DNA of 64,000 nucleotides from Eretmocerus hayati (taxonomy: Eukaryota; Arthropoda; Insecta; Hymenoptera; Aphelinidae). The stretch is from NCBI GenBank assembly GCA_029851415.1, contig CM056742.1:87410748-87474747 (forward strand). The letters are read 5' to 3'. Below are positions 1-63,138 of this stretch, in pieces (within the stretch, counting starts at the first letter, position 1; each line of letters starts with the position of its first letter). The notes below the pieces were generated by a model. It was not told where the DNA came from and ran no database searches. It saw only the letters and a list, made by a program, of their open reading frames with translations. The translations under genes and the position numbers were made by a program.

Positions 1-802
1 AGCACAAACCTGTCTCGCCCTCCAGCTGTTTGATTGCAAACAAGCCTGTGATGGGCCAGTCGAGCTTATTACTAACTCCACGCATATCTATACAACAACT
101 GACTTTGATTTATCCAAGCCTGAATCACAAAAGTTTGCGCGTGGCACGAAGCAAGTTTTCGGTCAACCTAAAAACCATCAGTAATTAAGCTGGTGATATT
201 GAGAATAGGATTTGATGTTGCTACAAATAGAATAATTTACATCCCTCAGAGAAGTGGTGGTGCTTCTCTGCCTGAGATCGATAATTTAGCCCCCATCAGA
301 AAATCCTCCTGCATCACTGCTCCCATCTGTCCATCTGTCAGAGTCACCAAGTACTCATGATTGAATTTTCTCTCGACCACCAGGAGTCAATGGTGGATAA
401 TTTCCAACAGTCCACTTCAAAACAACTCTCATCAAGCATAACACGCCCCGCGACGGTTAATTCACGCACCCCGTAGTCAGATACACGGCAGAACAGGGGG
501 CTGGAGATAAGGCCGGGGATAAGGCCGCCATCTTGGATTAGGGTGGGTGCCGATAATAAGGCCGCCATTCCAGGACAGGATGGGCACAACCTAAGCTTTC
601 AAAAGGCTCTTTGATCCCGGCAGAAGGGTTTTGTTAGTAATAAGATAGGATTATCAGACTATATATATATATAGTTAGTGCGTAGGAAACAACTGTACAT
701 TGTGGGAAGAAAAGAGAAACACGAAAGAAGAGTCAAGCAAAAGTCGCGGATAGCAGGCTGGCCTTGCCTTTCGAGACCTTACTTTTTGATACCTAATCGC
801 GC
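1..802. other. Left flank, no gene recognised
   Basis: No convincing coding region is seen here. The stretch holds a short TA repeat near 660-672 and a local duplication of ATAAGGCCGCCAT around 510-570. I looked for a copy of the sequences that follow the second env gene (14.68-16.1 kb), as expected for a 5' LTR, and found none. The 5' boundary of the retroelement that follows is therefore undefined; it could lie inside this stretch or beyond the left edge. Confidence 0.5.
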
Positions 803-1057
803 ATGCGCCCCATGTCCGGAACCGTTTGTTGCCGTATCAACCCTAAAGTTAGCGCGTATTATTTGAGTTACACTACTGGCCGATTGGTCTGTGATTATTG
901 TTTTTTGTCAAGCGGCAGTAGCCCCGGGGAAGATATTGGGCTTATTTTGAATTTTCACAATAAAGAATCGGGAAGAGCGCCACTATTGTGCGATTTTTGC
1001 TCGACTGAACTCTTAGTTATTAGAAAAATCCAAGACTGTAAACGGTGCCAGGCGTGA
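803..1057 (+). CDS. Small Cys-rich zinc-binding-like protein, accessory copy A
   Basis: An 84-residue ORF with an ATG start. It contains an N-terminal Cys, then VCDYC, 30 residues, CDFC, 12 residues, and CKRC close to the C terminus. The same CxxC-x30-CxxC-x12-CxxC frame, with a His near position 19 of the 30-residue spacer, occurs in two more ORFs of this cluster (2118, 4148) and in a variant at 1141. The segment around NPKVSAYY matches NPQIEAYY of the next ORF, so these are paralogues. Zinc binding is inferred from the paired Cys motifs. I do not recognise the family. It is the first gene of a compact cluster upstream of gag and pol, which suggests a retroelement accessory protein, perhaps regulatory. 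Confidence 0.62.
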   Translation: MRPMSGTVCCRINPKVSAYYLSYTTGRLVCDYCFLSSGSSPGEDIGLILNFHNKESGRAPLLCDFCSTELLVIRKIQDCKRCQA

Positions 1058-1140
1058 GCAACAAAAGCACGGCAATAGGAAACGATCGCCATAGCATTTT
1101 TCTCGCGTAAGAACCCAAAAATTACCGCGGCCCAGATCAC

Positions 1141-1401
1141 ATGAGCACCGAGGCAGCCCAGTGTATCCGAAAGAACCCACAGATCGAAGCATACTACTTT
1201 GGCGCGAGTGGGAAGACGCTTTGTAGCAGTTTTTATTATCCAGAATACTTTGGAATCTTCGAGTTGGTTAACGCGTACCTACAATTCCACGACTTTGGGA
1301 TCCTCGTGACCCCCTTCTTATGTAATCACTGCCAAACTGAGTGCGTGACGGCACGCCCGGTTAGTAAGTGTCGGCACTGTCGTATGAGGTTGCGATCGTG
1401 A
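1141..1401 (+). CDS. Small Cys-rich zinc-binding-like protein, accessory copy B
   Basis: An 86-residue ORF with an ATG start, 84 bases after copy A. It aligns with copy A through NP-hydrophobic-x-AYY, a central FHD, CNHC, a 12-residue spacer and CRHC. The first Cys pair is degenerate (CSSF in place of CxxC) and the following spacer is one residue shorter, so one metal site may be lost or changed. The C terminus is basic (RMRLRS). Paralogy with copy A is seen directly; function is unknown. The end overlaps the next open frame (from 1368), which lies in the -1 frame and lacks a nearby ATG. Confidence 0.6.
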   Translation: MSTEAAQCIRKNPQIEAYYFGASGKTLCSSFYYPEYFGIFELVNAYLQFHDFGILVTPFLCNHCQTECVTARPVSKCRHCRMRLRS

Positions 1402-1913
1402 AGCCTGTTTCGTCTTTCCCCTCGCGCCTCTGGTTAGTCCAGGGGTGGTGCATTTCAGACCTGGGTAAGCACAGAAGCCACGGCCAGAGGAAGCGCATCC
1501 AACGGCGTCGCGAACTCGAAAAATTCGCCCAAAATGCCGCGCAGGAAAACACCCTACAAAGTACATCTACTAGAGAATTAGCTCTTGGAGTGAGAGCCCA
1601 AACACCCCCGCGCTCCCTCGAAGAGCGTCTACGAGACGTCCCTAACATCACGAAGGCTTGGCGATGTACTGAGTGTTTGAGAGACGCGCCGAGAATCCCA
1701 CGCTTCGCAATCGAGGAAGGCGAACTGCCCGCGTCTGGAGTCCCGTGTCATCGACCCAAAACTCATTTTACGCGTCCGCCGCCTAAGCCCAGCAGGACCC
1801 TCGAAGAAATCAAGCGAGCTTTCATGTTATATTACAACCTGTTCAAAAGCACAAATAAAAATGTGCACATAAAGCCATGCGTACACGTGTTGGAAGCAGA
1901 AGCGGCCAACTAG
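1368..1913 (+). CDS. Open frame in accessory cluster, no AUG start (exon or fusion partner?)
   Basis: A 181-codon open frame overlapping the end of copy B in the -1 frame. The first in-frame codons at 1368 are GTG TCG; there is no ATG until deep inside the frame, so if translated it would need splicing, frameshifting or a non-AUG start. The middle is Arg/Gln-rich. The second half has WRCTEC, a later Cys-His pair (PCHRP), and a Pro-rich stretch (TRPPPKPSRT) followed by a predicted helix. I saw no slippery heptamer in the overlap. No family is recognised. Its length in this GC-balanced compact cluster favours coding, but it remains uncertain. Confidence 0.4.
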   Translation: MSALSYEVAIVKPVSSFPSRLWLVQGWCISDLGKHRSHGQRKRIQRRRELEKFAQNAAQENTLQSTSTRELALGVRAQTPPRSLEERLRDVPNITKAWRCTECLRDAPRIPRFAIEEGELPASGVPCHRPKTHFTRPPPKPSRTLEEIKRAFMLYYNLFKSTNKNVHIKPCVHVLEAEAAN

Positions 1914-2131
1914 ATGGTTTGGGTTGCACGCGTAGCTCTGTAGCCCTCAAATTACCACTTCCTATTGATAGCTCAGTCAGCCCGTCAAAACTCTACGTGA
2001 ATAGGGTCCTATTAGGTAGGATTTTTGTGCACTTATTGCGGCCCATGAACGCTCCAGGAGTATATGTAGACGACCTGATGTGGAACCAGGTTCGTAGGGA
2101 TTTTGCGCCAAGGCATAATGGAACACGATGA
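1877..2131 (+). CDS. Small overlapping ORF, uncertain
   Basis: An 84-residue ATG ORF that overlaps the preceding frame by 37 bases and the following Cys-rich ORF by 14 bases. No motif is recognised. Tight overlaps on both sides fit the compact packing of the cluster, but the ORF has no paralogue or domain to support it and could be fortuitous. Confidence 0.28.
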   Translation: MRTRVGSRSGQLDGLGCTRSSVALKLPLPIDSSVSPSKLYVNRVLLGRIFVHLLRPMNAPGVYVDDLMWNQVRRDFAPRHNGTR

Positions 2132-2465
2132 AGAGCCACCAAGACCGCATTCATCTAAAGAAGCCTACGAGTTAGCGACTAAAGGATATTGCATCCGCCG
2201 ATTAAAAGCAAATATAGCATTGTGCAAATTTTCCGCTCATAATGTCAAAGAAAAGGTACTGTGCTTTAAATGCTTCGTGATATTACCGGAGAAATGTATG
2301 CCAATTTCGCACCAACGCGTCACCTATAAACACGCATTCTCGAAGAAAGTATTACCCGAGCTTTGCATCTTGTGTCAGCGACCCGCCATTAAGTGCATGC
2401 TAGCGATACAGTGCCGCGAGTGTGTAACTCTCATTGAAGAGCAGGTCATAAGGCCTAAACAATAG
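2118..2465 (+). CDS. Small Cys-rich zinc-binding-like protein, accessory copy C
   Basis: A 115-residue protein when started at ATG 2118; the open frame extends 5 codons upstream but only to a TTG. It begins with an acidic, Pro-containing leader (MEHDEEPPRP) and then carries an N-terminal Cys, LCFKC, exactly 30 residues, CILC, 12 residues, and CREC. It thus shares the strict spacing of copies A and D, with extra Cys residues in the spacers (PEKC, IKC). The His in the long spacer is at position 20. It is the third member of the family in the cluster and ends 22 bases before the SR-rich ORF. Function is unknown; zinc binding is inferred. Confidence 0.62.
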   Translation: MEHDEEPPRPHSSKEAYELATKGYCIRRLKANIALCKFSAHNVKEKVLCFKCFVILPEKCMPISHQRVTYKHAFSKKVLPELCILCQRPAIKCMLAIQCRECVTLIEEQVIRPKQ

Positions 2466-2487
2466 TATTCGCACGGAGATCGCTACA

Positions 2488-4179
2488 ATGGGCCCTCGCT
2501 TTTACGGAGCTGTAAGGTTAGAGACCAGTCATTGGCGAACGTTAACGTCCGATGAGGACCTGTCGACCCGTGATAAACTATTGATCGACGTGTTGGACAC
2601 GCATTACGCGAGCACGGTCCGTTTGTGGCGCGCTCTAGAAGACGATGCTCCTGAAGTGCACCAAAAAGCATATTTCACTTTTCATGAAAGACCATGGTAC
2701 AGCGGGTTATGGGAATTTGGTGGCGCGGAATACTTGGTAGTCACTCACCGCGGATGCTTCGGACCTCATACATTCAGGGAGCGAGTACAAGTGAGACCCC
2801 ATCTGAGCGCAGCAGCTAATGACCTGCACAGAAACCCATTCTTGAGGTTCATGATAAAGGTAGATCGAGTGGGTTACTACATCGATAATGGGTGCTTTGA
2901 TAAGTACGCCCTTGAACGATTAGAAAATTGCCCATTCTTGCAGCCCTTCCCGCATCATCGTCCCTTCTACTCTTTGTACTTGTTAACACGCATCGGTGCC
3001 GCCAGCGTGATACTGAACCCTAGAAGAAACAGCGACCAGACCATACCTGGTTTAGTCTGTCCAATTACCAGACCGGAAGCGCTCGTCTGGTTGGAGCACG
3101 TTTGGTACAATAATAACAGGAGCGAGTTGCGGGTCCGATTTCTTAAAGTACTACACTCATGCTACCCGAATCTCTCCGCTGACAGCTCCACCTCCGGATA
3201 CGACAGCCTTGAGCAACAGGGAGACGAAGGAGAAGCACTTATGAGATGGTTGTACCATGAGAGAATTCCCCCGTCAAGAAGTTTCAGTCTTCCGGTATAC
3301 GAACTCCGCGGGATCCCCGAATCTCCGAGAGCCCAGTCTGTATCATGCATCGCACCCACACCCCAAAGAGTAGAGGGGCCCAGAAACAGAGCTCTATCAG
3401 ATCGCTTAGGTCCACCGAGACGTCCAGGATCGCGAACCCCACCTGATTCGAGATACTCTAGCCAGTCTCGTTTAGGATCTCGCTCTGAAAGCCGTTCTCG
3501 ATCCCGCTCTCGATCTAGATCTCATTCTCGGGACCTGTCACCAACTCGGTCTCAATCGCGCCGATTAAGTCAATCGGGGTGTCCAACGGAATCATCACGT
3601 GGTCTTCGAATACAAGCACGTCCAAGCTCCCGTCAAAGAACCCCTGAGAATCGGGTCCTGGAAAATCCGGTAGGACAGGCCTGGAACTCCACGGCTCGGA
3701 ACCCGAGTCCGCCACGTCGGTCTCCAGTATACTCCAGCTCTGACAGCGAGCCCCGATTGAAGAAGAGATATAGGCGTTTGTTTATGATCAACCCCATATC
3801 AATATCGTCACCCGAATCGCTCAGCGGTAGAAAACCTTCGGCTAGACCAAATAATGAGAGCCGCTCTGTAGACTCTCAAGCTACAACCGTGACGAGCACT
3901 AATGCAACCAAGAAATTTCAACAACAAAAATTGGATATCGGAAAGGCGCTACGGGCAACGATTGGATTGAAACTTCAAATCCGGAAACTCCAAACCAAGG
4001 AGGACAGCGCGTTAATCGACCCGGCAGCCCCTAGTTGTTCCACAAGCACCAGCACTAGATCTGAAAGGAAGAGCAAAAATACCGCCAGGAGCTCCCAACA
4101 TCCTTCTCGGTCTTCCTGCCGCAGGACTAAAGAAAACCCTCGTTACTATGAGTCCAGCGACTCGGATGAGAACAACTGA
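2488..4179 (+). CDS. 563-residue accessory protein with SR-rich hinge
   Basis: ATG ORF of 563 residues. Residues 1-240 look like a globular domain rich in aromatic residues (HERPWYSGLWEFGG, VGYYIDNGCFDKY, WLEHVWYNNN) that I do not recognise. Residues about 290-400 form a low-complexity Ser/Arg region with several SR dipeptides in a row (around 3478-3590). The C-terminal part is basic and Ser-rich and ends in an acidic tail (SSDSDENN). SR tracts are typical of proteins that bind RNA or splicing factors, and some viral regulators have similar hinges, so a role in control of expression or RNA handling is a reasonable inference, not shown. The end overlaps the next Cys-rich ORF by 32 bases, supporting a shared transcript. 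Confidence 0.6.
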   Translation: MGPRFYGAVRLETSHWRTLTSDEDLSTRDKLLIDVLDTHYASTVRLWRALEDDAPEVHQKAYFTFHERPWYSGLWEFGGAEYLVVTHRGCFGPHTFRERVQVRPHLSAAANDLHRNPFLRFMIKVDRVGYYIDNGCFDKYALERLENCPFLQPFPHHRPFYSLYLLTRIGAASVILNPRRNSDQTIPGLVCPITRPEALVWLEHVWYNNNRSELRVRFLKVLHSCYPNLSADSSTSGYDSLEQQGDEGEALMRWLYHERIPPSRSFSLPVYELRGIPESPRAQSVSCIAPTPQRVEGPRNRALSDRLGPPRRPGSRTPPDSRYSSQSRLGSRSESRSRSRSRSRSHSRDLSPTRSQSRRLSQSGCPTESSRGLRIQARPSSRQRTPENRVLENPVGQAWNSTARNPSPPRRSPVYSSSDSEPRLKKRYRRLFMINPISISSPESLSGRKPSARPNNESRSVDSQATTVTSTNATKKFQQQKLDIGKALRATIGLKLQIRKLQTKEDSALIDPAAPSCSTSTSTRSERKSKNTARSSQHPSRSSCRRTKENPRYYESSDSDENN

Positions 4180-4537
4180 AATGAGAGAAGTAGCAGAACA
4201 GAGGCGTGCTACGGAAGAGAGTCCAACACCAATCTCGACCCCCACCCCCTCCTGGATCCGCGACCTCGGAGTAGAAGCCTGCATATGTATGACTAAGAAG
4301 GAGGGACAAACAGCCATTTTTATTGGCGAAACGAGCCAAAAGGTTTCTTGTTTAGAATGCTTCACATGGAAAAACTTTGCTCCAGCGGAAGAAATCCACC
4401 AACTACGCGACTTCCACGACTGCGCTCCCGTGGTTATGGACAATCTAGCTTGCGATTTTTGCCAAGAAGAAATCACGGATTCCAGACCTGCCTCCCAATG
4501 CCTTGAGTGCATTGAAGTAATTATAAGTTCTAGATAA
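4148..4537 (+). CDS. Small Cys-rich zinc-binding-like protein, accessory copy D
   Basis: A 129-residue ATG ORF overlapping the end of the SR-rich gene. It has a longer N-terminal leader (about 45 residues, Thr/Pro-rich) and then the family module: CIC, SCLEC, 30 residues including DFHDC, CDFC, 12 residues, CLEC, and a short hydrophobic end. Spacings equal those of copies A and C. It is the fourth paralogue and the last gene before the A-rich tract and gag. Zinc binding is inferred from the motif; the biological role is unknown. Confidence 0.62.
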   Translation: MSPATRMRTTEMREVAEQRRATEESPTPISTPTPSWIRDLGVEACICMTKKEGQTAIFIGETSQKVSCLECFTWKNFAPAEEIHQLRDFHDCAPVVMDNLACDFCQEEITDSRPASQCLECIEVIISSR

Positions 4538-4604
4538 GCCATTAGGCAAGCAGTTTGTACATACTTATCACTTAACGGGTTAGTTATCGCCAACGCCCTT
4601 GGCT

Positions 4605-4627
4605 AGAAAAAAAAAAAGAAAAAAAAA
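4605..4627 (+). promoter_or_regulatory. All-purine A-rich tract before gag
   Basis: An uninterrupted 23-base purine run (A tracts broken by single Gs) in the short gap between the accessory module and gag. It could be a polypurine primer tract, a slippage site, or simple low complexity. The sequence does not decide between these. Confidence 0.35.
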
Positions 4628-4636
4628 TCATATACT

Positions 4637-4825
4637 ATGACTGACTGCACCGGAGTGGAGAGGGTTAGGAAGGGAGGCAACTGTGAAAATACGCCCGAAG
4701 CACGAGTAGAGCGCCCAGCTGACTTCAACCTCGTTTATTTACAGATCCTGAGGCAGCTCCTGATTGAGAACGGACTATATGCGGGATTTGGATACCTGGA
4801 TGAGATCCTCGCGGAGTCGACTTAA
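4637..4825 (+). CDS. Small ORF directly upstream of gag
   Basis: A 62-residue ATG ORF whose TAA lies 9 bases before the gag ATG. Its C-terminal half (LVYLQILRQLLIENG) looks like an amphipathic helix. No family is recognised. Its position suggests an upstream leader ORF on the gag mRNA, but it could be chance. Confidence 0.35.
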   Translation: MTDCTGVERVRKGGNCENTPEARVERPADFNLVYLQILRQLLIENGLYAGFGYLDEILAEST

Positions 4826-4834
4826 TGAAGCTCC

Positions 4835-6556
4835 ATGCCCAATGACAACAGACGAGTCACTCGCAGCCAAGTGCAACAACCCAAACCCGAAGCCCCGCGT
4901 AATCCTCAGATAGGTCCTGGGAACGTGCCGTCGGAAGACCTTGCTAGTGGAGGTCACCCCTCTCAGTGGTACGAAGACACTTTGAGTAATCGATCGAATC
5001 CCGATAACTCGGGATACTTCCACGATAACCTCGAAGTATTCGACCCTTTTGCATGCAAGAGCAAACTGGAGCATTCGCATGACGGGACACTAAGAATACC
5101 CGAAGACGGATTTAAGGACACCGACGAAATCACCAATTCGACTGTGATTCCTGGGATCGGAAAAAGAGGTTTGAACGAGACGAACCCCTTTCGCACTAAG
5201 ACCCCGCCCGCAAGCCCAGTAGCCAGCCGCAAAGAGACCCCCAGTCCGCCCCCTCTTCACGACCGACAGGCCACTTCGGAGGTAATCGCCATGGCGCCGC
5301 AACCAGTCACTTTGAAAGACGCGCTCAAGGTTGTACCAGATTTCACGGGATCTAATATACCATTGAGCCAATTCCTAGAAGGATGCAATGAAGCGAAAGA
5401 GATGATAGACGAAGGATCAGAAGGCAACTTTGCAAAACTCCTGAGATCCAAAATATCAGGAGAAGCCAGACAAGCAATCAGTGGCCAAGCTTTCACTACG
5501 ATAGAAGCCTTGAAAGATCACCTCAAGAGTATCTACGCCCCAGCGAAATCCGTGCATCAGCTCATGGGAGAATTGGGACACGAATTTCAGAAAGATAATG
5601 AAAGCGTAGTCTCATACACCAACAGAATGCGAGAACTAAGCAATCGCATCAAAGAAGCACGAAAAATTGAAGTCGGAGCAGACGACACGAACGTGCTCGA
5701 GTGCACTAAAAGAGGATTAAAACCCGAGATTGAGCAAAGGATCACTCAAGATACTTCCTTCAATAATCTTGTTAAGGACGCCATCCCTATTGAGAGACAG
5801 TTGGAAGCTCGTCGGATGCTGCGTGAAGGAGTGCCAGGGGAGAGCGGAGCCTCCCCCTCATCCAAACCACCACGGAAGAATGTGTTCACCTGCCGGATCT
5901 GTGATAGTAACAACCACTCTGATCCTGATTGCCCCAAGAAAGCGAGAAACAAGACTTGCGAATATTGCGGGAAATCCGGGCATTCAATCAATCTCTGCTT
6001 CGAGAAGGCAGAGTTCGAAGCTAAGAGCCAGATGCTGTGCCAACTCTGCGACGGTGGTGGACATACAGCTCAGAGATGTCCCGGTCGTGCAAGATGCCAA
6101 ATCTGCGAGAAGCCCGGGCACATTGCCAAGAACTGCCCCGCCGAAGTCCTAGAGGCAACTCCGAAGCCAGCGGCAACGGAAACTTGCCAATATTGTCACA
6201 AACCAGGACATACGGCTGACCACTGCTGGACCCTGAAACGATTAACTTCGCCCGGGGTCAGGCTACCCAGCATACCGCAGAGCGCGTGCCAAATTTGCAA
6301 CCAACCTGGACATACGGCCGTTAACTGCAAGAATTTCCGGAAGGAACCTGCATCCGACCAAGAGGTGTGTTTTTATTGCAAAAAGCCCGGTCACCGGAGT
6401 GCAGAGTGTGCCAGAAGACTCTTGAGCAATGCAAGAACGCAGGGAAACGGTCAGAATCTCCCGAATCCGAGCGGGTCGGGGGAGTCCAAGGAAACCCGCC
6501 CGCTCGACCCCAGCCGGATCAATACCCTACTCGGAGAATTACTACCTTCGGTATGA
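4835..6556 (+). CDS. gag: Gag polyprotein with seven CCHC zinc knuckles
   Basis: 573 residues from ATG 4835. The N-terminal about 140 residues are polar and Pro-rich. Residues about 150-330 (from VTLKDALKVVPDF) resemble the retrotransposon Gag capsid region of insect Gypsy/errantivirus elements. The C-terminal part carries seven C-x2-C-x4-H-x4-C knuckles between 5891 and 6409, for example CEYCGKSGHSINLC and CQICEKPGHIAKNC. Capsid assembly and RNA packaging are the known roles of the family; seven knuckles is far above the usual zero to two. Its 3' end overlaps pol, which lies in the -1 frame, and contains the GGGAAAC slip site. The frame is intact. Confidence 0.9.
   Translation: MPNDNRRVTRSQVQQPKPEAPRNPQIGPGNVPSEDLASGGHPSQWYEDTLSNRSNPDNSGYFHDNLEVFDPFACKSKLEHSHDGTLRIPEDGFKDTDEITNSTVIPGIGKRGLNETNPFRTKTPPASPVASRKETPSPPPLHDRQATSEVIAMAPQPVTLKDALKVVPDFTGSNIPLSQFLEGCNEAKEMIDEGSEGNFAKLLRSKISGEARQAISGQAFTTIEALKDHLKSIYAPAKSVHQLMGELGHEFQKDNESVVSYTNRMRELSNRIKEARKIEVGADDTNVLECTKRGLKPEIEQRITQDTSFNNLVKDAIPIERQLEARRMLREGVPGESGASPSSKPPRKNVFTCRICDSNNHSDPDCPKKARNKTCEYCGKSGHSINLCFEKAEFEAKSQMLCQLCDGGGHTAQRCPGRARCQICEKPGHIAKNCPAEVLEATPKPAATETCQYCHKPGHTADHCWTLKRLTSPGVRLPSIPQSACQICNQPGHTAVNCKNFRKEPASDQEVCFYCKKPGHRSAECARRLLSNARTQGNGQNLPNPSGSGESKETRPLDPSRINTLLGELLPSV
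6442..6505 (+). promoter_or_regulatory. Programmed -1 frameshift signal, gag to pol
   Basis: The heptamer GGGAAAC at 6442-6448 is in the exact X XXY YYZ register of the gag frame (zero-frame codons GGA AAC). It lies inside the gag-pol overlap, and a -1 slip enters the pol frame. After a 9-base spacer, CTCCCGA (6458-6464) can pair with TCGG-GGGAG (6476-6484, with two bulged Gs). The loop GAGCGGG (6469-6475) is perfectly complementary to CCCGCTC (6499-6505). Together these could form an H-type pseudoknot. Pairing was judged by eye. Retroviruses use the same heptamer and layout. Confidence 0.8.
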
Positions 6557-9500
6557 GGAATCTGAAAAGATTTTCACCCCATATAGAGTTGCAATTTGAT
6601 CAGAGGAAGGATCCTTATCGGTTCCTGCTTGACAGTGGAGCTGAGGCAAGCGTGATCAAAAGTAGCTTGATTCACGATTCCAGCTTCATTGATGACTCCC
6701 ACCTTCACGAACTCAAGGGCTTAGGGTCAAGATCAACAATATCAAGGGGAAATGTAACCATGAAAATTTTTCAGACTAATGCAAAACTGGTTGTCGTTCC
6801 AGATGAATTCCAAATACCATACGACGGAGCTTTCGGAACGGACTATTTTAGATCTAGCAAAGGGAAGCTGGATTTTGGAAACCAAACGCTTACGATCGGG
6901 AATAGAAAGATAGGGTTTCATTTTTCGCCACTGACTGACGAAAGAAAGTCTGCTCGAATAGCCAGTTTTGAGAATGCAAACCCTAAACGACAATTTCCAT
7001 TCATCAGACTAAGTGGATACACGCATTTTAGGGACTGCTATTTTTTGGTAGACTCCGGATCCGAGGTCAATATTATCCGAGAAGGGTTGATCACAGATCC
7101 ACGGAAAATCAATCCTGTCAAACGCATAGAGATTCAAGGCATCGGTAAAGACGTCTTCAATACTAAAGGAACCACTAATCTACCCATAGTCACTACCGAC
7201 TCCGAATTCCAAGTTGTACCCAACGATCTATGCTTTCCAGGCGGCGCCATTCTAGGCGCACAATACTTAGCCGAGTCTTCAAGCATCTTGGACTACGATA
7301 TCGAATGCCTGCATCTTTCGGGGTTCAGAGAGCCGCTCATTTTCGATACTCCCGATAGACTGTTGGGCGTCAGCAATCCAAACGAAGAAGGCGCGATCAG
7401 CGACATGGAAGAAGACTTCGTTCCGGAACTGACGGAAGAAGAGTACGAAGAACTCAAGAACACCTGCTGGGAGTGTCTCTACGATAAATGCGAAATTCAT
7501 GATTCGGTCAGCTTAGAGTGTCTGTATGATTTCGCGATATCTCCAAGTTCTGGACTAGAGCGCGAGCGCCTCGGCGATTTCGCACCTCCTGACGAGTCCA
7601 CTACGGTACCCATCTTCGACGTCAACAAGCCACGCGTCCGTGATTTACTGAGAATTGATCACTTAGACGATGAAGAGAGAGATTTTGTCATCCGAGTTAC
7701 TGAAGAAAACAAAGACGTTTTCTACCTTCCCGGAGATGACCTCCCAGGAACTAAACTAGTAACTCACAGCATACCAACCGTGGACGACGAACCTATCAAC
7801 GCACGCCAATACAAGTTTCCCCACGCTTACAAAGATGAAATCAACAGACAGGTGCAAGAACTGCTAGATAAAGGAATCGTAGTGAATTCGAGTTCACCAT
7901 ATAATATCCCCATCTGGTTGGTCAAGAAGAAGCCCGACTCGCAGGGTAGACCAAGATGGCGCTTGGTGTTAGATTTTCGACCCCTAAATGACAAAACCAT
8001 AAAAGATGCTTACCCCTTACCGAATATTACGGAAATATTCGATCAAGTGGGAGGGGCGAAGTACTACACGGTGCTGGACTTGGCTTCCGGATTCCATCAA
8101 ATATGGATGGACCCTAAGGATGCCCCCAAGACGGCCTTCTCAACGCCGTTCGGACATTACCATTTTGTACGTATGCCTTTTGGTCTTTGTAATGCTCCAG
8201 CTTCTTTCCAGCGATTAATAGATACTCTGCTCAAAGGCCTCCAAGGCGTTATTCTGTTTGTTTATTTAGATGATATCGTTATTTATTCAAATACTTTAGA
8301 AGAACACGAAGAGGAACTTCGAATTCTCTTCTCCCGACTCAGAGAAGCCGGACTCAAGTTACAGATAGATAAGTGCGAGTTTCTTAAAAGACAAGTAGTT
8401 TACTTAGGTCACGTTTTGAGTCAGGATGGATTGCGGCCTGATCCTGAGAAGATAGAGGCCGTTAAGCTATTCCCCGTACCAAAAAACGTGAAAAACGTTC
8501 GAGCGTTTCTAGGTTTAGCCGGATATTATAGAAGGTTCATAAAAGACTTTGCAAAAATAGCAAAGCCTCTTACCCAACTTCTACAGAAGAATGAAGACTT
8601 CACATGGGATGAAAAGGCGCAGGGGGCCTTCGAGACCCTGCGAAAAGCATTATGCGAAGCACCAGTGCTCGAATTTCCGGACCTAAATGCCCCGTACATC
8701 ATCACTACGGATGCCTCGGGATTCGGTGTGGGGGCTATACTTTCTCAAGGTGAGATAGGCAAAGATAAGCCGATAGCATATACTTCCCGAGTTCTCAAAG
8801 GACCAGAACTGAATTACGAAGTTTATGAGAAAGAGGCCCTTGCCATGCTCCATGCAGTGAAAACCTTCAAGTCCTACGTATACGGAAGGAAAATAACTTT
8901 TGTCACGGATCACTAACCGCTGACCTGGTTCAAAACCGCTGATCTCAATGCTCGAGTTCAGAAGTGGAGGTTTAAGCTCTCAGAGTATGAGTATCAGGTC
9001 GTATACCGCGCTGGAAAGCTGAACGTCAACGCTGACGCATTGTCTAGGAACCCTGTCGAAGGAGTATCCATGAACATAGTCACGCGGGCCCAAAAGAGGA
9101 GAGCCAAAGCCGAGCAACGCACCGAAGATCATGTTAACGTCCAGAGTACCGGTGAAACGGTGAGAACCGAGCCCATTAACGAGCCAATAACCCAAACAAC
9201 TCTTCCTCCTGAACATCAAGAATCTGTTATAGAGGAGAATGGGGTGGAGCAAGGAAACCCCGCACTTGCGCCCCCGAATGAGGAAGTGAAGGTCGCAGAA
9301 TCTACACGAACTTCACGAAACTCACAACGTTTTATCAAGATCAAAGATGCAATCCAAGCCCGAGACGACGACATTGTATACTTCGTCAGTAGCGACGGAA
9401 AACCTTGCGATGAAGGATCTCGCAAGCTTTTGGAAGTAGGTAGGCTGAAAACTGGAGAAGGAGCCGAAGTAGGAGAAATCCACCAGATTTCCATTAAGCC

Positions 9501-10842
9501 TAGTGGTAATTATTTCTCACTGTGTATTCGAGGACCCGAACGCGAATCTCTGAGCACGATTCGCGACAACCTCCTCCGTACGTTAACTTTACTTCATTGT
9601 TTATCAGATAGGTTAAAAATTTCCAAAATAAGTATAGCTAAGAGTGAAAATATAGAGAATCTAGCATGGTCAGAGGTCCTCAACCTCTTGGATATCGCCT
9701 TTGAAGGAACTGACGTGAAAATCCTTATCTGCTGTGGCACTCTGAAGCACGTCCCTCTTGGAACGAGAGACGAGATATTTCACGAGATGCACGTGTCTCC
9801 CGTAGGAGGACCCAGGGGGGTCTCTAAAACATTCAATCGGGTACGACAGAAATACTATTGGGAAAATCTCAAAACCGATATCCAAAGGCGAATTCAGCAG
9901 TGCCTAGATTGCCAATTAAAAAAACTGGTGCGTTTGAAAACCGAACAGCCTATGATTATCACGGATACTCCCGGAGCCGCGTTTGATAAGATTGCAATGG
10001 ATATCGTCGGGCCACTCCCTAAAACGAGAAACGGGAATGAGTACATTCTCACGATGCAAGATCAGCTGTCGAAGTTTTGTTTAGCAATTCCATTAGGGGA
10101 TACGCTGGCCTCCACTATCGCGGACGCATTCGTGAAAAGCTTCGTATGCATCTTCGGTGCACCGAAATGTATTCTAACCGACCAAGGCCGTAACTTCATC
10201 AGTCAGTTGATGGAAAGAGTAGCAAAACGCTTCAAAATTAAAAAGATTCGCTGTACCGCGTTCCACCCTCAGTCAAACGGATCTTTAGAACGTTCTCACC
10301 ACGCCTTGGGTGAATTTCTGAAACAATACGCAACCACAGACCAAGTGTGGGATGAGTGGGTAGACATAGCAATGTTGAACGTGAACAGCGCCGTGTCAGA
10401 GTCTACGAAACACACCCCTTTCGAAGTTGTTTTTGGAAGACTAGCGCGATTACCATCCAACGATCCCCTCCGCGAAGGAGATCTCGTCCCTACGTACAAA
10501 GGATACCTCGTAGATTCAGTTACGCGGCTCACCGGCATCCAAAAACTCGTGTACGACAACCTTCTGTCCTCTAAGATCCAATCGAAAGAGTACTACGACC
10601 GCCGAATCAACCCAAAGCGCTTTCGCGTAGGAGATTACGTTTACCTATTAGTAGGACCGAAACCCGGGAAGTTCGGAAACCATTATACCGGACCGCACAA
10701 AATACTCGAAGTATTAGAAAACCATAACGTCAAGATACAATACAAAAACTCCAACAAAGTTGTACACATGAACCGTATCAGGATCTCCCACATAACCCAA
10801 GAACCTCCAAAACTCCCGCGAAAACAAAGGAACCCCAACTAA
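6442..10842 (+). CDS. pol: Pol polyprotein: tandem PR, RT, RNase H, integrase (interrupted by one stop)
   Basis: One reading frame from the frameshift site to 10842, broken only by TAA at 8914-8916. In order: protease-like domain 1 (LLDSGAEAS, Asp codon 6631), protease-like domain 2 (LVDSGSEVN, Asp codon 7051), an acidic linker, RT with FVYLDD (8263-8274), and RNase H (TTDAS to TDH). After the stop come the rest of RNase H, a linker with a macro-like stretch (about 9480-9750), and integrase. Integrase has an HH-CC zinc site (9781-9912), catalytic D 10000, D 10180 and E 10288 (D,D35E), and a C-terminal GPY/F-like segment. It is a Ty3/Gypsy, errantivirus-related Pol. The stop lies where the RNase H TDHxxL motif continues, so this copy should not make integrase unless the stop is read through. 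Confidence 0.9.
6601..7320 (+). other. Tandem duplicated retropepsin-like domains
   Basis: Two copies of the aspartic-protease core lie 420 bases (140 residues) apart in one polypeptide. Matching segments are FLLDSGAEASVI / FLVDSGSEVNII, LKGLGSRST / IQGIGKDVF, VVVPDEF / QVVPNDL, and FGTDYF / LGAQYL. Retroviral and Ty3/Gypsy proteases normally carry one such core and act as homodimers. A covalent pair would resemble cellular pepsin-type enzymes. Both copies keep the catalytic DSG. Confidence 0.8.
8914..8916 (+). other. In-frame TAA inside pol RNase H
   Basis: The pol frame reads through RNase H up to TDH, meets TAA here, and continues open in the same frame for a further 642 codons with intact integrase motifs. 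A single recent C-to-T change is the simplest explanation. No clear readthrough context was recognised. It is a break in this copy and is described only. Confidence 0.8.
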
Positions 10843-10869
10843 GATAAATTTCCATCAAATTCTAGGTAA

Positions 10870-12477
10870 ATGCTGCCCTCCTGGATAACACTCCTCATCG
10901 GACTAGTCGCGGCTCGAGCGCAAAATCGAATCACTCCCTTATCATTGAACTACGGAATTTACTTCCATTACCAACAAGTCGTTAAGATTTCCTCGGAATT
11001 TTGGAAGGGAGAGATAAACGTACCTCTAGCTTCGATCCGGCACAATGCATACGAACTAGATTCAATAGCCGAGGCCGTAAGTCGAGCTTGCGAACGCCCG
11101 GACGAACTCTGTGATTTTCACAAAGAAAAATTGAAGGAGGTAAAAGTGTACCTTACGATCAATAATGGACTCCTTTACGACCTAAGCTCAGCGCTGAACG
11201 CGAGTACCGATTTAAACGATCCTAACGGAACCAAGCATGTTCTGATCGACAACCCTTTCACCCGACAAATTCATCAAATACTAGAATTGCAAGATGACAT
11301 CGCTGGTCAACGAGTTGCAATCTCCGAACCAAAGGGCGGAGAAAAGTTTCATAATGCTATCCAATCACTACTGTGGTTCGAAGAGCGGAAACTTAAGATA
11401 CATGCCAACATATACTACAAGCTGCTAAGTACAATCGACCCTTCCGGAAAGGTAGATTTATCCAAGTCCTTGTTCGATGAAACCGGATTGGAAAAGCTTC
11501 AAAAATCTATTAGAACCACATGCCCCCACGGCGAGGTGGTATTTGAACACCCGAGTGAGTTACAAATGACGGTCGATCATGGAGTCCTGGTTGTTCGAGT
11601 TCAAATTCCGATCTTTAAGGAAGATCACGCCCTCTATAGGATTTATAGTGTACCATTCCAATTCGACGATGCCTTCGTCCAAGTTCCATTAGAAAACGAC
11701 TATCTCGCGATAAATTGCGAGACGACCGCCCACTATAAACTAACGAGCCTAGATGGTTGCACAATTAGTTCTCAAACGGCTTATTGCACCGCGCACCACG
11801 TAGCCTTCAGCTCATCTTGTGAATACGGAATATTCACTTCAAACATTTCAGAAATGAACGAATGCCTGTTCCGGCCGTATCTCGGGAATCAGAGTATATT
11901 CGTACCAGTATACGGTACCCGCAGTTGGATCTACGTCGTTGAACGTTCAGAGTCAATTGAGATTTGGTGCCCAAACGTCCAACCGGCACGCGGTACACTT
12001 TCCGGGACCGGGATCATAGAACTTTCCGAAAACTGTTCCGTAGACACCACCGAGTCACGACTAGTCCCGCAAGGTAAAGTAATTGACGTTCTCACCAGTA
12101 CGTGCCTCCCGCGCTCACGAGAATCCGGGCTAAGCATTCCAAGAAAATTTGAACACAACAATTATAGCGTCTTGACATACGTTTTCTTTTTATCAACAAC
12201 TATTTTATCAATCATTCTCATGAGACGTCGAAAAAGGAGATCGCGGCCTAAACCCGAGATCCTCGTTCTGAAACCAGAATTGATCGCATTAATACAACAA
12301 CAACACGCTACAAATATCGCAACAATGGAAAACGTATATCAAGAAATTTCACCCGTCATCTACGATTCCCCCATAGAACCCCCTGTGCTCGCCCTCCAAA
12401 TCCAGACTATACCGATCACTTACGATTACCCCAAAACCATCGCTTCAATCGACTCATCGTGTGCTCTCCCATCTTAA
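10870..12477 (+). CDS. env: Envelope 1, errantivirus/baculovirus F-like glycoprotein
   Basis: 535 residues, ATG start 27 bases after pol. An N-terminal hydrophobic signal peptide (LPSWITLLIGLVAARA) is followed by a long ectodomain. It has several N-glycosylation sequons and the Cys-rich region typical of insect Gypsy Env and baculovirus F proteins, seen in VPLENDYLAI, LDGC, CEYG, ECLF, a WIYV segment and GTGIIELSENC. A transmembrane segment (about 12170-12225) precedes a basic RRRKRR anchor and a tail of about 80 residues with YxxI/YxxP-like motifs. The known role of the family is virion attachment and fusion at the membrane. I did not find an obvious furin site. The frame is intact. Confidence in the family is moderate to good, based on pattern only. 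Confidence 0.72.
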   Translation: MLPSWITLLIGLVAARAQNRITPLSLNYGIYFHYQQVVKISSEFWKGEINVPLASIRHNAYELDSIAEAVSRACERPDELCDFHKEKLKEVKVYLTINNGLLYDLSSALNASTDLNDPNGTKHVLIDNPFTRQIHQILELQDDIAGQRVAISEPKGGEKFHNAIQSLLWFEERKLKIHANIYYKLLSTIDPSGKVDLSKSLFDETGLEKLQKSIRTTCPHGEVVFEHPSELQMTVDHGVLVVRVQIPIFKEDHALYRIYSVPFQFDDAFVQVPLENDYLAINCETTAHYKLTSLDGCTISSQTAYCTAHHVAFSSSCEYGIFTSNISEMNECLFRPYLGNQSIFVPVYGTRSWIYVVERSESIEIWCPNVQPARGTLSGTGIIELSENCSVDTTESRLVPQGKVIDVLTSTCLPRSRESGLSIPRKFEHNNYSVLTYVFFLSTTILSIILMRRRKRRSRPKPEILVLKPELIALIQQQHATNIATMENVYQEISPVIYDSPIEPPVLALQIQTIPITYDYPKTIASIDSSCALPS

Positions 12478-12569
12478 TATCCTCGTTACGAATAAAAACT
12501 AAAGTCCCCACGATTATTTGTTACAGAAAAGAGAGTAGAACCAAAAACCCTCCCTGCCCCAGTACAACG

Positions 12570-14677
12570 ATGAAGAGGCCGACCATTGCCCTGCTTTTGT
12601 TGCTTCCCCTGCATGCTGCGGGTTTGATTGGGTACGATTGTGGGTCACGTTCATTAAACGTGACAACGTTGTCCCTCCTAGATGTGGACAAATGTGACAT
12701 AGCCACCGATGACGTCAAAACTAGCGACGTCAACATCCAGCTGCTTCAAATTAACGATTTCATAGAAACCGAAGCAATACAATGTAAGGTAGAAGTTTTC
12801 CGCACAGTTGAACGCTGCGGGATGTTTGACCATAATTCAGCCGTGTTACACGGCAGCAGTAGTGGATACGTGTTCGAATTAAATGCCCAAACATGTTACG
12901 ATATGCATCGCACTCGGACCTTGGCATTTTCTAGTGTTCAAGTCATTAGTGGTCTGAAGACCGATGGAAACCCGACCAAACATGCCATCCTAATCGCGGG
13001 ACACGTTGATCGCGAAGGGCGCTGTAGCGGAACCGGTTATGCCGACCCCTATGGATCCTGGAGCGACGTATTTGTACAAGGTACCGTCACCATCACCCTC
13101 ACGGTTCAGACCGCAAAAATTGAAATTGACAAGAACCAGATCATGCTCAGGTCCGGGACAATGTGTCCATTGACCGATGGAAGTTGCCTGGACATGGCGG
13201 GGGGGGGGGGGGGCACACGTTTTGGAAACCCCTCCCCCATGACTCGTGCGGCTTCAATCGGTATAGTGTATTATTCGAAGGTAAAGCTAAGAAAATGATA
13301 GATGTAGTAATGAGAAACGCCGAAACAGTGTACTCGGTGACTAGCCAGGACACTGTGTTTGCGCTTACGGCTAAGGCTACCGACACTGTGTGCGGGTATA
13401 CCGTGACGCGAACAGAGCATCCCCGCCTGGTCATCTACGAAAATGATAAAGGACACGAGTTCTCTTCCATGAGGACCAAACACCCCTATAACATGGATAT
13501 GTTTGCCTATGTGAACTCCAAATTCGTTTATGTAGAGAGATGGATGAGGTCGCAATTCAGGCTATTGTACCGCGACGTGCTGATTAAGCGGTGCAACCTT
13601 GAACGACAAATACTGAAGAACGCTCTATCGATTGCTACTCAATCTCCGGACGAGTTTGCCTATAATTTAATGAAAGGGCCGGGCTACATGGCGTTGGTTT
13701 CTGGAGAGGTGGTGCACGTTATCAAATGCATACCCGTGGAGGTCAAGGTCGTACATGGTGACACTTGTTACGCCGAACTCCAAGTGAGTGTCGATAATCA
13801 GACTCTATTTTTGCAACCCAAAACGCACATCCTCAAGAGTAAGGGATCGGAAATCTCTTGCAATACGTTACTACCAGCGTATTACTTCGTAGGAGACCAG
13901 TGGTACAAGATTACACCACGCCCTATAGAAGCCAAGTCCCCCGAAATGATGAAGCCCTTGACTCGCAATACTTGGAAGTACGTGAGCCCAGAAGGACTTG
14001 CAACCTCCGGGATTTACACCGATGAGGACTTAAACCACCTCAGGGAACGGATAATGTTCCCCTTAGAGAGTCAAGGGCACTTAAACGACTTGGCTAGAGA
14101 AATGCACGGTCAACCAATAACAAGCTCTCAAGGTGGAATCCTGAAACTGCTCAACGAAGACGCGGTGTCACGCATCGCTACCTCCACCTGGAACAAAATG
14201 TGGGATCGCTTCATGACCTTCGGTACTGCAAGTGCTGGGTTCATTGCCATCTTTATGATCCTACACATTTTCAAGACTGTGATGGACATTTTCATCAGAG
14301 GTTACACTCTTCATTCTGTTTTCGGCTGGTCACTGCACTTGATTGGAGCCGTTTGGAGCTCCTTGGCACATTGCCTACTAGTGGCCTGCCAGAAACCAGA
14401 GGAGACGACAGAAGAAGAATACCAGTCCGAGCTCCAACCTTTAGCTAATACAACAGCCCAAAATCAGATTTATCCTAACTTATCAACTCCACATGACCTT
14501 TGCCAGGCCAGCGGAATGTCCTCCTCCCGTCCCGACCACACCCATACCGTACCGAACTCCCCAAACCCTATTCATACCGACTTGACGGCCAACGCGTCTT
14601 TCAGTGCTCCTAACTCTCCCTTGATACCCCCTAGATCAATCATCTCTCCACCACTAACGAAGTCCGGAGATTGGTAA
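12570..14677 (+). pseudogene. Envelope 2, chuvirus-like glycoprotein, split at a G15 tract
   Basis: The first part starts at ATG 12570 (signal peptide KRPTIALLLLLPLHAAG, then GYDCGSRSLNVT and SLLDVDKCD). It runs open to 13298 in frame 3, but beyond the G tract this frame gives no family-like sequence. The homologous continuation runs in the -1 frame up to 14677, with LMKGPGYMALVSGEVVHV, LATSGIYTDEDL, HLRERIMFPLES, two hydrophobic segments (about 14215-14390) and a Pro/Ser-rich tail. GYDC near the N terminus and the GIYT-x-EDL / IMFP block are hallmarks of chuvirus-like arthropod glycoproteins, a class III fusion type known to be captured by some LTR elements. The switch occurs at 13199-13213 (15 Gs). 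It may be a mutation, an assembly error or a slippage site; it is described here only. Confidence 0.82.
13199..13213 (+). repeat. 15-base G homopolymer in envelope 2
   Basis: Fifteen consecutive Gs encoding Gly in either frame. The family-like reading moves to the -1 frame across it. Such tracts are hot spots for replication slippage and for sequencing error. Confidence 0.9.
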
Positions 14678-14678
14678 T

Positions 14679-14844
14679 CTCGACAAGAGTCGAGGTAGAC
14701 GTTTTCGCCTGGTTAATACTTTAACCAGACAAAACCGTTTTAAGTCGTGGGGTGTGACGTCCGTGACAGTCACGTACGTCTTTCAGGTTTGGTTGTCTGC
14801 TTGCCCTCGTGCGAATCCACAGAGGCGCGCGAGTGCAAGCAGAC
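14679..14844 (+). promoter_or_regulatory. Array of four strong hairpins after env 2
   Basis: Directly after the env-2 stop come four consecutive inverted repeats. CTCGAC/GTCGAG is at 14679-14694. CTGGTTAA/TTAACCAG with an outer GTTTT/AAAAC is at 14701-14733. GACGT-CGTGAC/GTCACG-ACGTC is at 14756-14780. A long one has 19-base arms and 2 mismatches at 14795-14813 and 14826-14844 (core GTCTGCTTGC/GCAAGCAGAC). They would form stable RNA stems in the 3' part of the retroelement transcript. Export, packaging or termination roles are possible; none is shown. Confidence 0.7.
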
Positions 14845-15457
14845 GACAAAGTTGCTATGATGCGCGGCATGCTCTATCTCTCTCCATCTCTTGTAGTCCC
14901 TTCAAAAACTCCTCCTCCATCTAGGAAGGGATATCACAGGTTTGGGTGGGATGCTCTGGTCGCGCCTTGGTATTCCCCTCGCTCGCTCCGAATATTTGAT
15001 GGTTTCGAAATCCCGAATGAAAAAAGATATGTTTGAAGCGCACTGCCTAAATTTCCCAATGAAACGTTGCGCAATATTGAAACAAGAACTGTTGTTAGGC
15101 GGAATCGTGAAGCGAGCGAGGAAAAACACCTTCTCAACTCATGAGGAAAAGCCGATGTTAATGGCCTAAATTTATGCGTCGAGAGGTCATCTTTTGAATT
15201 ATCCAATATTTTATATAAGTTATGAAGAAGAAATTATTATTAGAACAAAAAAAGGGAAAAAACAACAATTTATCCCAAGTCCGATTAATTGAAATCGAGA
15301 TCTTATGAGGCTCAGCTTCGACGGTTCCGGACTAATGTTAATTCCTTTTTATTTCCCTAGAGACTCCATTATCTATTAATATTCCTATATATATGCGACA
15401 TTCTTGCCCCTTCAATATTTATACATTTTTGCCAACATTATTTAAAAACATTGTAGA

Positions 15458-15512
<55 letters not shown>

Positions 15513-16120
15513 CGCTCAGAGAACCCCCACATGTGTAAGAGTTAAGTTAAATTAGCCCCGAGATGACCACTCGATGCTTTACCCTATGTTTCGCGTAGTC
15601 CAGAAATTACTTTTATTCTACATTATGCTATTTGAATGAGTAGAAAACTTCAAGAAAAGGGACTACTTGGTCAAAAAGGTACTCGACGCGCCATCTGTCA
15701 CCTTACCACCGAACCTGTAAAGTCAATTTATTGATCGACGAAACACCTAGATCATGTACTCAAGCGCCTGCGCAACTCGACCAACGAGTTAAGCGCGCGT
15801 GGACTTTGAATTATCAGGCCGCAAGAGGAAAGTCAACCACTCAGAAGGCCCAATTTCCCTCCGCGAACGGGTCTATTGTTAATTCTCTGCACCGGCAGAG
15901 GGGAAAGAAAAACTACTCCCTTTAAATTTGGCTGCAGGGAAGAGCTCGCTCTCTTCTCTCCCGGATCCCGAAATCGGCTACAGCTTCTTCTGAGTGGTTA
16001 CTATCCAGCGCGGCCGTGCCACGCTGTACCCCCAAGAACTTTGAATATAAAAAGTAAGTCTCAAAAATCATTATTCAGTTATTTCATTCCCCAAAAATAA
16101 TTACCTGAATCTACACTACA
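14753..16120 (+). repeat. Possible 3' LTR region (start TGTGACG; end uncertain)
   Basis: TGTGACGT at about 14753 follows a G-rich purine-biased stretch and would be a normal LTR start after a Gypsy polypurine tract. Downstream are promoter-like and AT-rich sequences, a GT microsatellite (15461-15511), and a stretch ending near ACTACA at about 16118. No second copy exists in the window to prove an LTR, so both the start and the end are guesses. No gene is seen in this stretch. Confidence 0.28.
15461..15511. repeat. (GT)n microsatellite
   Basis: About 25 uninterrupted GT units. Confidence 0.97.
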
Positions 16121-16677
16121 CATATATAACATTAGTGATAATCGAATACTTAGATAGGGAACCTTGCCTCAGGGGATTAGCCCCAGAAGGCTGGTGCCAA
16201 CCCGCTTGGACTCGAGCATAGTGCTCGATAAGTTCAGGTGGGCAATGAGAAGATAGAAAAATCATTTCTCGTAAGTGTCCAAAAGGATTCCACGCACAAC
16301 TCATCATCAAAGGTGGACATTTTTTCGCAATACGCGCCCCGAGCCAGTGGACGAAAGTCCAGGCTCAAAAACTAATTACATATATTTATAGTAGCATCAC
16401 CGCGTACTTCACAGCCGCAACTCGCGTATCCTATCTCTTCCTCTACGCATTATATTGCGAATCATTTGGAATAGAGTGTCATGAACCATCTGCACTCCCT
16501 GACAAGATTTCTGTGATATTTCAAGCATATTATCAAGCGTTCATCATAATCGAAGCGCGTAAAAGTCGTTTTTTGACTTTCTTTCAAAAAAAATCTTTGA
16601 AATTGATTTACTCGAAAATCTTAAAGTAGACGATTACAAAATGATTGGAAGATGTTATTTGAGCCCCAAACAATCAT

Positions 16678-16959
16678 CTGTCCCGGTTCAAGAAGTGGAC
16701 ATCCCCAGCATGCCAGTCATGCGGGAACAACTGGTATGACGCTGAACACGCCCTGTTCGAATGCAACGACACCCGAAGAGAGCGCGCTGAGCTAGATGAA
16801 AGGCTGGGAACTCAACCAACACCTGAGAACCTCGTCCCGTACTTGTTCCGCAACCAGGAGACATGGGATAGAGTCACCGGCTACTTCAAGCTAGTGATGA
16901 CCCGGAAGGAGGAGAAAAAGAGGAAAGCGTGGCACCTCGAAGCCGGCGGACCACAGTGA
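16678..16959 (+). pseudogene. 3' end of an R1-like LINE ORF2
   Basis: An open frame without a start, ending in TGA at 16957-16959. It reads SPACQSCGNNWYDAEHALFEC, a CCHC-type zinc finger, then TPENLVPYLFRN, a WDRV helix and a basic MTRKEEKKRKA segment. This arrangement is the characteristic C terminus of R1/Jockey-type LINE ORF2 after the reverse transcriptase. The upstream part (16.1-16.68 kb) does not continue the frame, so the element is 5'-truncated, as is usual for target-primed retrotransposition. The following purine-rich DNA (16960-17350) may be its 3' UTR, ending in an AG run near 17325-17346. Confidence 0.75.
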
Positions 16960-17585
16960 ACCATTCGGTACCAACAGAAAAGGCCCATGACTCCCGAAGG
17001 AGCATGATGGGCCAAAGAGGGGAGGAAGAAGAGAGAAAAAGGGGAGGGAAGGGGAAGAATGAAGATAGAAGATGCCGACAGAAGACCGAAAGGAGAAGAG
17101 AGAAAGGGGAACGTTCACAATTGATCGGGAGATACGCCGCTGATCCTGAAGTGATGCTCACGCGGTTCCCAGCTGAGATGGTAGATACAGGTGGATCCCC
17201 GACTTGAGTGCCCGCCTGTCAGCCTGTGTGGACTATGCGTTGCCCACATGAGCTGAACCAGTCCGGTGTCTGGTGATAGATCTGAAGGATCTTGATGCAG
17301 ATTTTGCCCTCTAATCATCTTGAAAAGAAAAGAGAGAGAGAGAGAAAGTGTAGATTGTTGATTGGTTTTATTCATGGTACTTTGGGATATCACCCTATCT
17401 GGTACAAATAGCAAGTCTCAAAGAATAATCAATCTTTACGTGAATGAGAGCAAGATTGCGTATGGTGTGAAGTAATGGAAGATAAGTACATATATTCATA
17501 TCCAAAATAAAATAATCAAACGAATGTAATTCAGTCCGAATTCATAAACACATCTCTAATTGAATAGCGTAGTAGAACTCCAAGA

Positions 17586-19679: not shown

Positions 19680-20029
19680 TATACCTGCCCAAATCTGAAA
19701 AAGCTTTCCTTTTTCTCAGCTTTTATTTGGAATCTTGCTATCGACTTTCAATTTTGAAGGGATGTGAGTGCCATAACCCCAAAATTTCGGTTTTTATCTA
19801 TCATAACTCAAGATAGAATTGTCTATTAGTTTTCATCTAGTATTCAAATCTCCGCGCGCCTCCGAGTCGGTATAGTAGCGATCTTTAAGCCTTCTGACTG
19901 ACGCGCAATGTAAATACTCGCACATGGGCGTACTCATATATATGTACTAACACATAGGAATTTTGGAAAATTCCACGAGTTTGTACGAGGAATTTTCCAA
20001 AGAAAACTGTGTGAAATGAAAAAATTTTT
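19680..20029. other. AT-rich spacer, nothing recognised
   Basis: No ORF, repeat or RNA gene that I can support. Confidence 0.5.
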
Positions 20030-52804: not shown

Positions 52805-52805
52805 T

Positions 52806-61648: not shown

Positions 61649-61659
61649 CGATCAAATAA

Positions 61660-63000: not shown

Positions 63001-63138
63001 TGCAATAGTGTCACCTGAGTATACACGTATAGACGCTCTGACATCGTTTGAATTTTCACTTCGTCTGAATTATTCTACCAGACCAGTAATTCGTTTTGAA
63101 CGAGTGATCAAACGATCATATCCATATCATCATATACG

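Follow-up and report, generated by a model that had tools for sequence, protein, structure and literature searches.

Complex retroviruses, which possess regulatory genes, are known from vertebrates, with HIV and HTLV as examples. Complex Retroviridae of this kind (lentiviruses, HTLV) carry small genes beyond gag-pol-env, placed after pol or env, and employ a -1 frameshift. The errantiviruses of insects (gypsy, ZAM, idefix) also have a -1 frameshift between gag and pol, together with the Ty3/gypsy order of pol domains, an F-type env after pol, and a short target duplication. Among baculoviruses, GP64 displaced F, and group I alphabaculoviruses retain an F remnant without a furin-type site beside the class III GP64.

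Elements of the MDG1 group (412, Stalker2) have two short ORFs, sORF1 and sORF2, between LTR and gag on the same strand, and no env in the part of the description available (PMC11952523). Anakin, of the BEL/Pao type, uses a chuvirus-type glycoprotein as its one env, and no gene module is described in the accessible portion of the source (PMC7642597). Burro and Ogre are very large Ty3/gypsy elements with extra coding capacity, and the env region of Burro, which lies in frame between gag and pol, has matches to mononegavirus fusion glycoproteins (available excerpt of PMC6431247). Gypsy elements with type III glycoproteins are mentioned in the accessible text of a further report (PMC13172572).

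The window analyzed here, 64,000 nucleotides of the Eretmocerus hayati genome (GCA_029851415.1, contig CM056742.1, forward strand, positions 87,410,748 to 87,474,747), very probably contains, in damaged form, a large complex endogenous retrovirus of the Ty3/gypsy kind found in insects. Its order, LTR-leader-Cys1-Cys2-X-Cys3-SR-Cys4-gag-(frameshift site)-PR-PR-RT-RH-IN-env1 (F-type)-env2 (class III, chuvirus-type)-LTR, recurs in other copies as one inherited unit, of which we are highly confident; that confidence covers the architecture, while the functions of the accessory genes we infer. The window copy is damaged by an in-frame stop within RNase H and by disruption of the env2 reading frame, and its 5′ LTR lies beyond the window. 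The features, all on the plus strand, are:

251..802, +, part of the 5′ leader; 251-438 aligns to the copy A leader at 74%
803..1057, +, Cys-rich ORF 1 (Cys1, 84 aa); 61% amino acid identity in copy A
1141..1401, +, Cys-rich ORF 2 (Cys2, 86 aa); 70% identity in copy A
1368..1913, +, ORF X (181 codons open, start codon unclear); 67.5% identity in copy A
2103..2465, +, Cys-rich ORF 3 (Cys3, 120 aa from the listed TTG, true start unclear); identity 64% (A), 76% (H)
2488..4179, +, SR-rich protein (563 aa); two E. hayati proteins, 36 genome match rows
4148..4537, +, Cys-rich ORF 4 (Cys4, 129 aa), overlapping the SR ORF end; identity 58% (A), 73% (H)
4637..4825, +, small ORF (62 aa) just 5′ of gag, candidate coding; identity 97% (A), 76% over 46 residues (H)
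4835..6556, +, gag with 7 CCHC zinc knuckles (Pfam)
6442..6448, +, GGGAAAC heptamer in -1 frameshift phase within the gag/pol overlap (from sequence)
6367..10842, +, pol with two tandem retropepsin domains, RT, RNase H and integrase (Pfam)
10870..12477, +, env1, baculovirus-F-type; PF12259 E 7.8e-19, PDB 9w4c E 1.1e-5
12570..14677, +, env2, chuvirus-type (Monjiviricetes) fusion glycoprotein; PF24664
14753..16413, +, 3′ LTR, TGTGACGTCC...CTTCACA; 98.6% identical to the LTR at C2:87328832-87330501

In pol order, F-type env after pol and short target duplication this wasp element resembles errantiviruses, but it differs from them in its seven-knuckle gag, two protease domains, second (class III) env, pre-gag gene block, length of 14-23 kb, and the lack of any furin-type site found in env1. 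Its small genes precede gag on the same strand, as in the MDG1 group, from which it is set apart, going by the available part of the MDG1 description, by six supported Cys- and SR-rich ORFs in place of two short ones and by its envelopes (PMC11952523). With Anakin it shares a chuvirus-type env, but within Ty3/gypsy rather than BEL/Pao (PMC7642597, as far as available), and with Burro great size, although the other extra domains described in the accessible portion differ (PMC6431247). Extra small genes and a -1 frameshift recall complex Retroviridae, but the wasp block precedes gag, and sequence searches of Pfam and PDB showed no homology of the module to their accessory genes. Group I alphabaculoviruses have a similar pairing of F-type and class III proteins, but they are DNA viruses and env2 is chuvirus-type, not GP64. 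The element is a complex variant of insect Ty3/gypsy retroviruses, and a literature search, based on the accessible parts of the sources, found no insect element with such a pre-gag module or with both env types.

A recheck of the window confirmed the ORF positions given in a first-pass annotation, and its claim of a same-strand ORF block 5′ of gag stood up to shuffled controls. The four longest plus-strand stop-to-stop frames of the block (575, 181, 173 and 128 codons) were unmatched rank by rank in 300 dinucleotide shuffles, whereas the longest minus-strand frame, of 196 codons, fell inside the shuffle range (maximum 219). The base composition of the module is like that of gag-env2, and the GC and A/T skew of 803-4537 was equalled by none of 337 overlapping same-size background windows, a background that excluded a tandem array at 30.0-36.2 kb, itself of similar skew. 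This array (29963-36137) has a period of about 323 bp and a higher-order spacing of about 937 bp.

Four of the module ORFs have Cys motifs in common, and five of their six pairs are related (0/1000 shuffles each, z 5-18), the Cys1-Cys3 pair having no detectable relation (120/1000 shuffles). The SR-rich protein has conserved N- and C-terminal regions on either side of Arg/Ser repeats, with 23 of its 30 RS/SR dipeptides at residues 260-420. Among 5.8 billion proteins, in a search able to reach only relatives with shared short exact words, the SR protein had two relatives, both from E. hayati, and the Cys alignment had none; the tail of one relative, P0002, has a stop at the corresponding position and resembles the window frame that continues beyond the SR stop into Cys4. 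No convincing family match to the module proteins was found in Pfam, PDB, PHROG or Rfam, an IMG/VR scan gave no relative of SR or Cys4, and structure predictions for Cys4 and the SR N-terminus were unusable (pLDDT 52 and 31). Nor do the module ORFs contain a transmembrane-like stretch (best 19-residue hydropathy 1.22, below 1.3), the helix of an MDG1-type sORF2 (FAST-like) upstream of gag being absent. ORF Y (1877-2131), also considered as a gene, was rejected, with pN/pS of 0.45 against 0.56 in one shifted frame (0.98 in the other) and a stop in the copy A stretch.

Comparison of the window with copy A, in frame and with two shifted frames as control, shows protein-coding evolution in the Cys, X and SR ORFs. 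Across the six, pN/pS was 0.21-0.40 in frame versus 0.86-1.48 shifted: 0.40 for Cys1 (shifted 1.48, 1.22), 0.21 for Cys2 (1.27, 0.98), 0.23 for X (1.19, 1.38), 0.25 for Cys3 (0.86, 1.34), 0.36 for SR (1.20, 1.32) and 0.36 for Cys4 (1.07, 0.98), raw values that are pushed up by synonymous sites near saturation. The corresponding figures were 0.10 for gag (1.93, 2.15) and 0.39 for env1 (0.93, 1.31), with 0.13 for pol, 0.15 for its integrase part, and 0.12 and 0.07 for env2, so that the module and env1 evolve fastest and env2 is the most constrained. Module values against copies H and C, the former decayed and the latter distant, were higher, at 0.23-0.62 (SR 0.48 in H and 0.57 in C), and env1 reached 0.59 against C. 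Identity to copy A rises to 96-100% over about 4650-5400, compared with 58-88% in the other 200-base bins with data (some module bins gave no value), which points to probable exchange, by recombination, of a tract of about 750 bp that spans the small ORF and the first part of gag. Since the small ORF lies inside this tract, its lack of synonymous change is not evidence of constraint.

The PR-RT-RH-IN order of pol, with gypsy-type RNase H and H2C2 integrase, places the element in Ty3/gypsy (Metaviridae), and RNase H in the window copy has a single in-frame stop. Its two protease domains are mutually related (0/1000 shuffles), and two retropepsin motifs occur in four of five pols (window, A, F and G; the open frame of C ended early). 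A -1 gag/pol frameshift is predicted from the GGGAAAC heptamer, which lies in phase 112-115 bases before the gag stop in five of seven gags (window, A, B, C, E) and is not in phase in the gag of D or F. In IMG/VR, gag had two matches at 30% identity (L002, L003) and the RT part no relative, and no gag was found in bacterial or archaeal contigs. Elsewhere in the window, the minus strand at 58416-61651 carries a second Ty3/gypsy pol, from RT to integrase in several open frames and 35-49% identical to that of the complex element, and at 18126-18692 a reverse transcriptase fragment (RVT_1, below the Pfam cut-off), perhaps of a non-LTR element.

Two env genes 3′ of pol, as the first-pass annotation had proposed, are borne out by Baculo_F and PF24664 matches in the window and by env1 followed by env2 in the downstream pieces of all seven other copies checked (A-G). 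The PF24664 match is near-complete but split over two frames in the window (model positions 9-213 and 212-636 of 653), while env2 is a single open frame of 618-714 codons in six of the seven other copies and of 433 in G. A furin site and fusion peptide are named as conserved in F protein in the available text of one report (PMC12992720). With regard to the furin site, env1, although an F-type env after pol, departs from an errantivirus F protein: RxKR/RxRR is absent from the open env1 frames of A, B, E and G, occurs in the window only past the membrane span and in C, D and F only within the first 21 residues, so that the ectodomain has no furin-type motif in the scanned part of eight copies, four of them partial (C and E cut by the piece end at 309 and 509 codons; D and F with short frames of 461 and 382). 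For this reason env2 is proposed as the fusogen, in analogy to the displacement of F by GP64 in baculoviruses. In the IMG/VR scan env1 had no relative and env2 one short match (L001). Bemisia tabaci is a whitefly parasitized by Eretmocerus. A chuvirus-type glycoprotein lies within complete element boundaries in B. tabaci, according to the accessible part of a survey (PMC10084718).

The element extends beyond the limits of 803 and 14677 first assigned to it, since 251-438 already aligns to the copy A leader and the 3′ LTR continues over 14753-16413. The leader contains the only two GCCGCCAT sites in the 64 kb, at 524 and 561, which we take to be a YY1/PHO-like motif and which may have a promoter role, and a TATATATA run near 661. 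A search for direct repeats between 1-4900 and 14400-22000 gave only short chance words, because the 5′ LTR is outside the window. The closest LTR to the window 3′ LTR, at C2:87328832-87330501 (the window being C2:87410748-87474747), has related leader sequence behind it but lies 80 kb from the module, and no target duplication pairs the two (CAAG versus GCCG). The 6.7 kb preceding the window do not align to the copy A leader. This LTR may belong to a separate copy, or later insertions may have parted it, as the 5′ end, from the rest of the window copy. The LTR starts with TGTGACGTCC and, in copies A, B and C, has TG...CA ends. One base after the 5′ LTR of copies A and C is a primer-site-like sequence, TGGAGGCCC, compatible with a threonine tRNA primer; two candidate sites for tRNA ends inside 1-5000 were chance-like and rejected. 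A strong hairpin at 14678-14880 (fold z -5.8), in a region from 14651 that ranks third and fourth of 571 windows for RNA structure, was considered as a 3′ UTR element and rejected, its position being that of the LTR start. Another segment, 23201-23400, has an extremely stable predicted RNA fold (z -17).

The 36 SR match rows in the 692 Mb genome led to 11 other loci that were fetched, with 20 rows left unfetched. Three of these loci have this block before gag, five a diverged SR-like gene before gag (with Cys-like matches in four), and three are pol-less. Copies A and B have all module ORFs, gag and pol collinear, in the same order and with 43-97% protein identity. Copy H, which is interrupted, has Cys2, X, Cys3, SR, Cys4, the small ORF, gag and part of pol; its SR stretch contains stops and its Cys1 match overlaps its Cys2 match. 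There is one stop in the copy A stretch aligned to Cys1. Copies C, D, E and F have an SR-like ORF, Cys-like matches and gag in order, open Cys-rich frames flanking a 405-codon SR-like frame on both sides in C, while G has SR and gag with no Cys match. The gene order anticipated for other copies was thus recovered: A and B carry the block followed by gag, pol, env1 and env2, and C has a diverged form of this arrangement. LTRs and target duplications (4-5 bp) were likewise found around these three:

C1:117168811-117191501, copy A from LTR to LTR, about 23 kb; target duplication ATCAG
C3:64063570-64087112, copy B from LTR to LTR, about 23 kb; target duplication CCTG
C3:153489638-153503969, copy C from LTR to LTR, 14.3 kb; target duplication TGAG

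Among A-G, which the search covered, LTR pairs are identical at 99.1% in A, about 99% in B, 97.2% in C and about 96-97% in E; the pair is split in F, and in D and G the 3′ LTR alone was seen. Copies C and E (L019/L028, L022/L032; C3:153.49M, 153.35M) have the same 25 bases before the 5′ LTR and therefore look like a segmental duplication, not two insertions.

In the three pol-less loci (L016, L017, L018), which resemble one another at about 95%, gag and an SR-like frame are flanked by LTR starts, between which no pol or env match was found. Their gag frames are of 388-404 codons within the pieces, and the SR-like gene, here 3′ of gag, is open for 350 codons in L018 and 249 in L017; across 1189 bases the LTRs of L018 are 99.9% identical. 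The joint retention of gag and SR suggests that both act in the same step, for example RNA packaging or export. A related LTR family, whose pairs are spaced about 11.7 kb apart, shares the initial 242 LTR bases at about 75%; in the one 6.2 kb piece sampled (L043) a gag-like stretch lies 5.7 kb after the LTR start with no match to module genes at E 1e-3. This branch may lack the module or carry it in a form too diverged to detect, and a simpler relative may exist.

It is very improbable that the 5′ module represents a distinct mobile element, or a cluster of host genes, lying beside an ordinary errantivirus. No 5′ LTR lies within the window, a purine tract (4605-4627) follows the module, SR homologues are annotated as lone host proteins, and one related LTR family has no module in the piece sampled, all of which would fit such an arrangement; yet gag is preceded by the module or an SR-like gene in 8 of the 11 other loci retrieved (contigs C1, C2 and C3), LTRs enclose the module in A, B, C and E, with target duplications found, its composition is like that of gag-env2, and the flanks of the purine tract share with the 5′ side no word longer than 7 bases. 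A retroposed cDNA was likewise rejected as the source of the module, there being no target duplication beyond the 7-base word. Separate insertion, which the first-pass annotation had entertained, is thus rejected, no LTR lying between block and gag in the fetched loci and no SR occurring without gag (11 of 11 other loci); its main reading, a complex insect retrovirus, is supported, and the refuting conditions it named did not arise in these loci. Still more improbable is that env2 does not belong to the element but derives from a chuvirus sequence inserted by chance next to the provirus. Chuvirus-type glycoproteins of Hymenoptera often lie near Gypsy fragments, with no clear Gypsy capture in the accessible part of the survey (PMC10084718), but the position of env2, after env1 and before the 3′ LTR, is the same in seven of seven other copies, and its pN/pS against copy A is low.

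In the working model of a complex retrovirus, a single LTR promoter would drive a long transcript, from which splicing would yield several mRNAs. The SR-rich protein might control splicing, export or packaging of viral RNA, and a role as RNA regulator is a tentative assignment, which we rate somewhat below even. The Cys-rich proteins, probably zinc-binding, could be nuclear regulators or host-silencing antagonists, and env2 would serve in membrane fusion, leaving env1, without a furin-type site, as a possible attachment or accessory glycoprotein. These module functions are guesses, since there is no usable structural model and no known-family match. A slightly less favored possibility is that the accessory genes are mainly host-silencing antagonists or factors for cell-to-cell spread, not regulators of RNA processing: the module evolves faster than gag, like arms-race genes, and, in the available part of their description, one of the upstream small ORFs of MDG1 elements encodes a membrane fusogen candidate (PMC11952523), whereas the module ORFs have no transmembrane-like stretch and the keeping of an SR-like gene with gag in the pol-less element fits a role at the RNA level. 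We give an even chance to the broader proposal that an insect lineage independently evolved complexity like that of HTLV and HIV, with a pre-gag regulatory block (an SR-rich RNA regulator plus a zinc-type protein family), a class III fusogen taking over from the F protein in a two-glycoprotein envelope, and pol-less gag+SR satellites.

With its recent LTR-flanked copies, conserved but fast-evolving block and two envelope types, the wasp lineage allows one to ask whether retroviral complexity arose independently, and opens questions on RNA handling by insect retroviruses, host silencing and fusogen replacement. According to the accessible part of one study (PMC13116730), gypsy elements inserted in a burst in E. 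hayati less than a million years ago, so the system may be active enough for RNA study. Other features of the window include a 461-codon open frame on the minus strand (51428-52813), which has no Pfam match and contains Cys in its C-terminal part, and an open frame at 63100-63771 that runs into a 42-bp tandem repeat, read as a repeated peptide.
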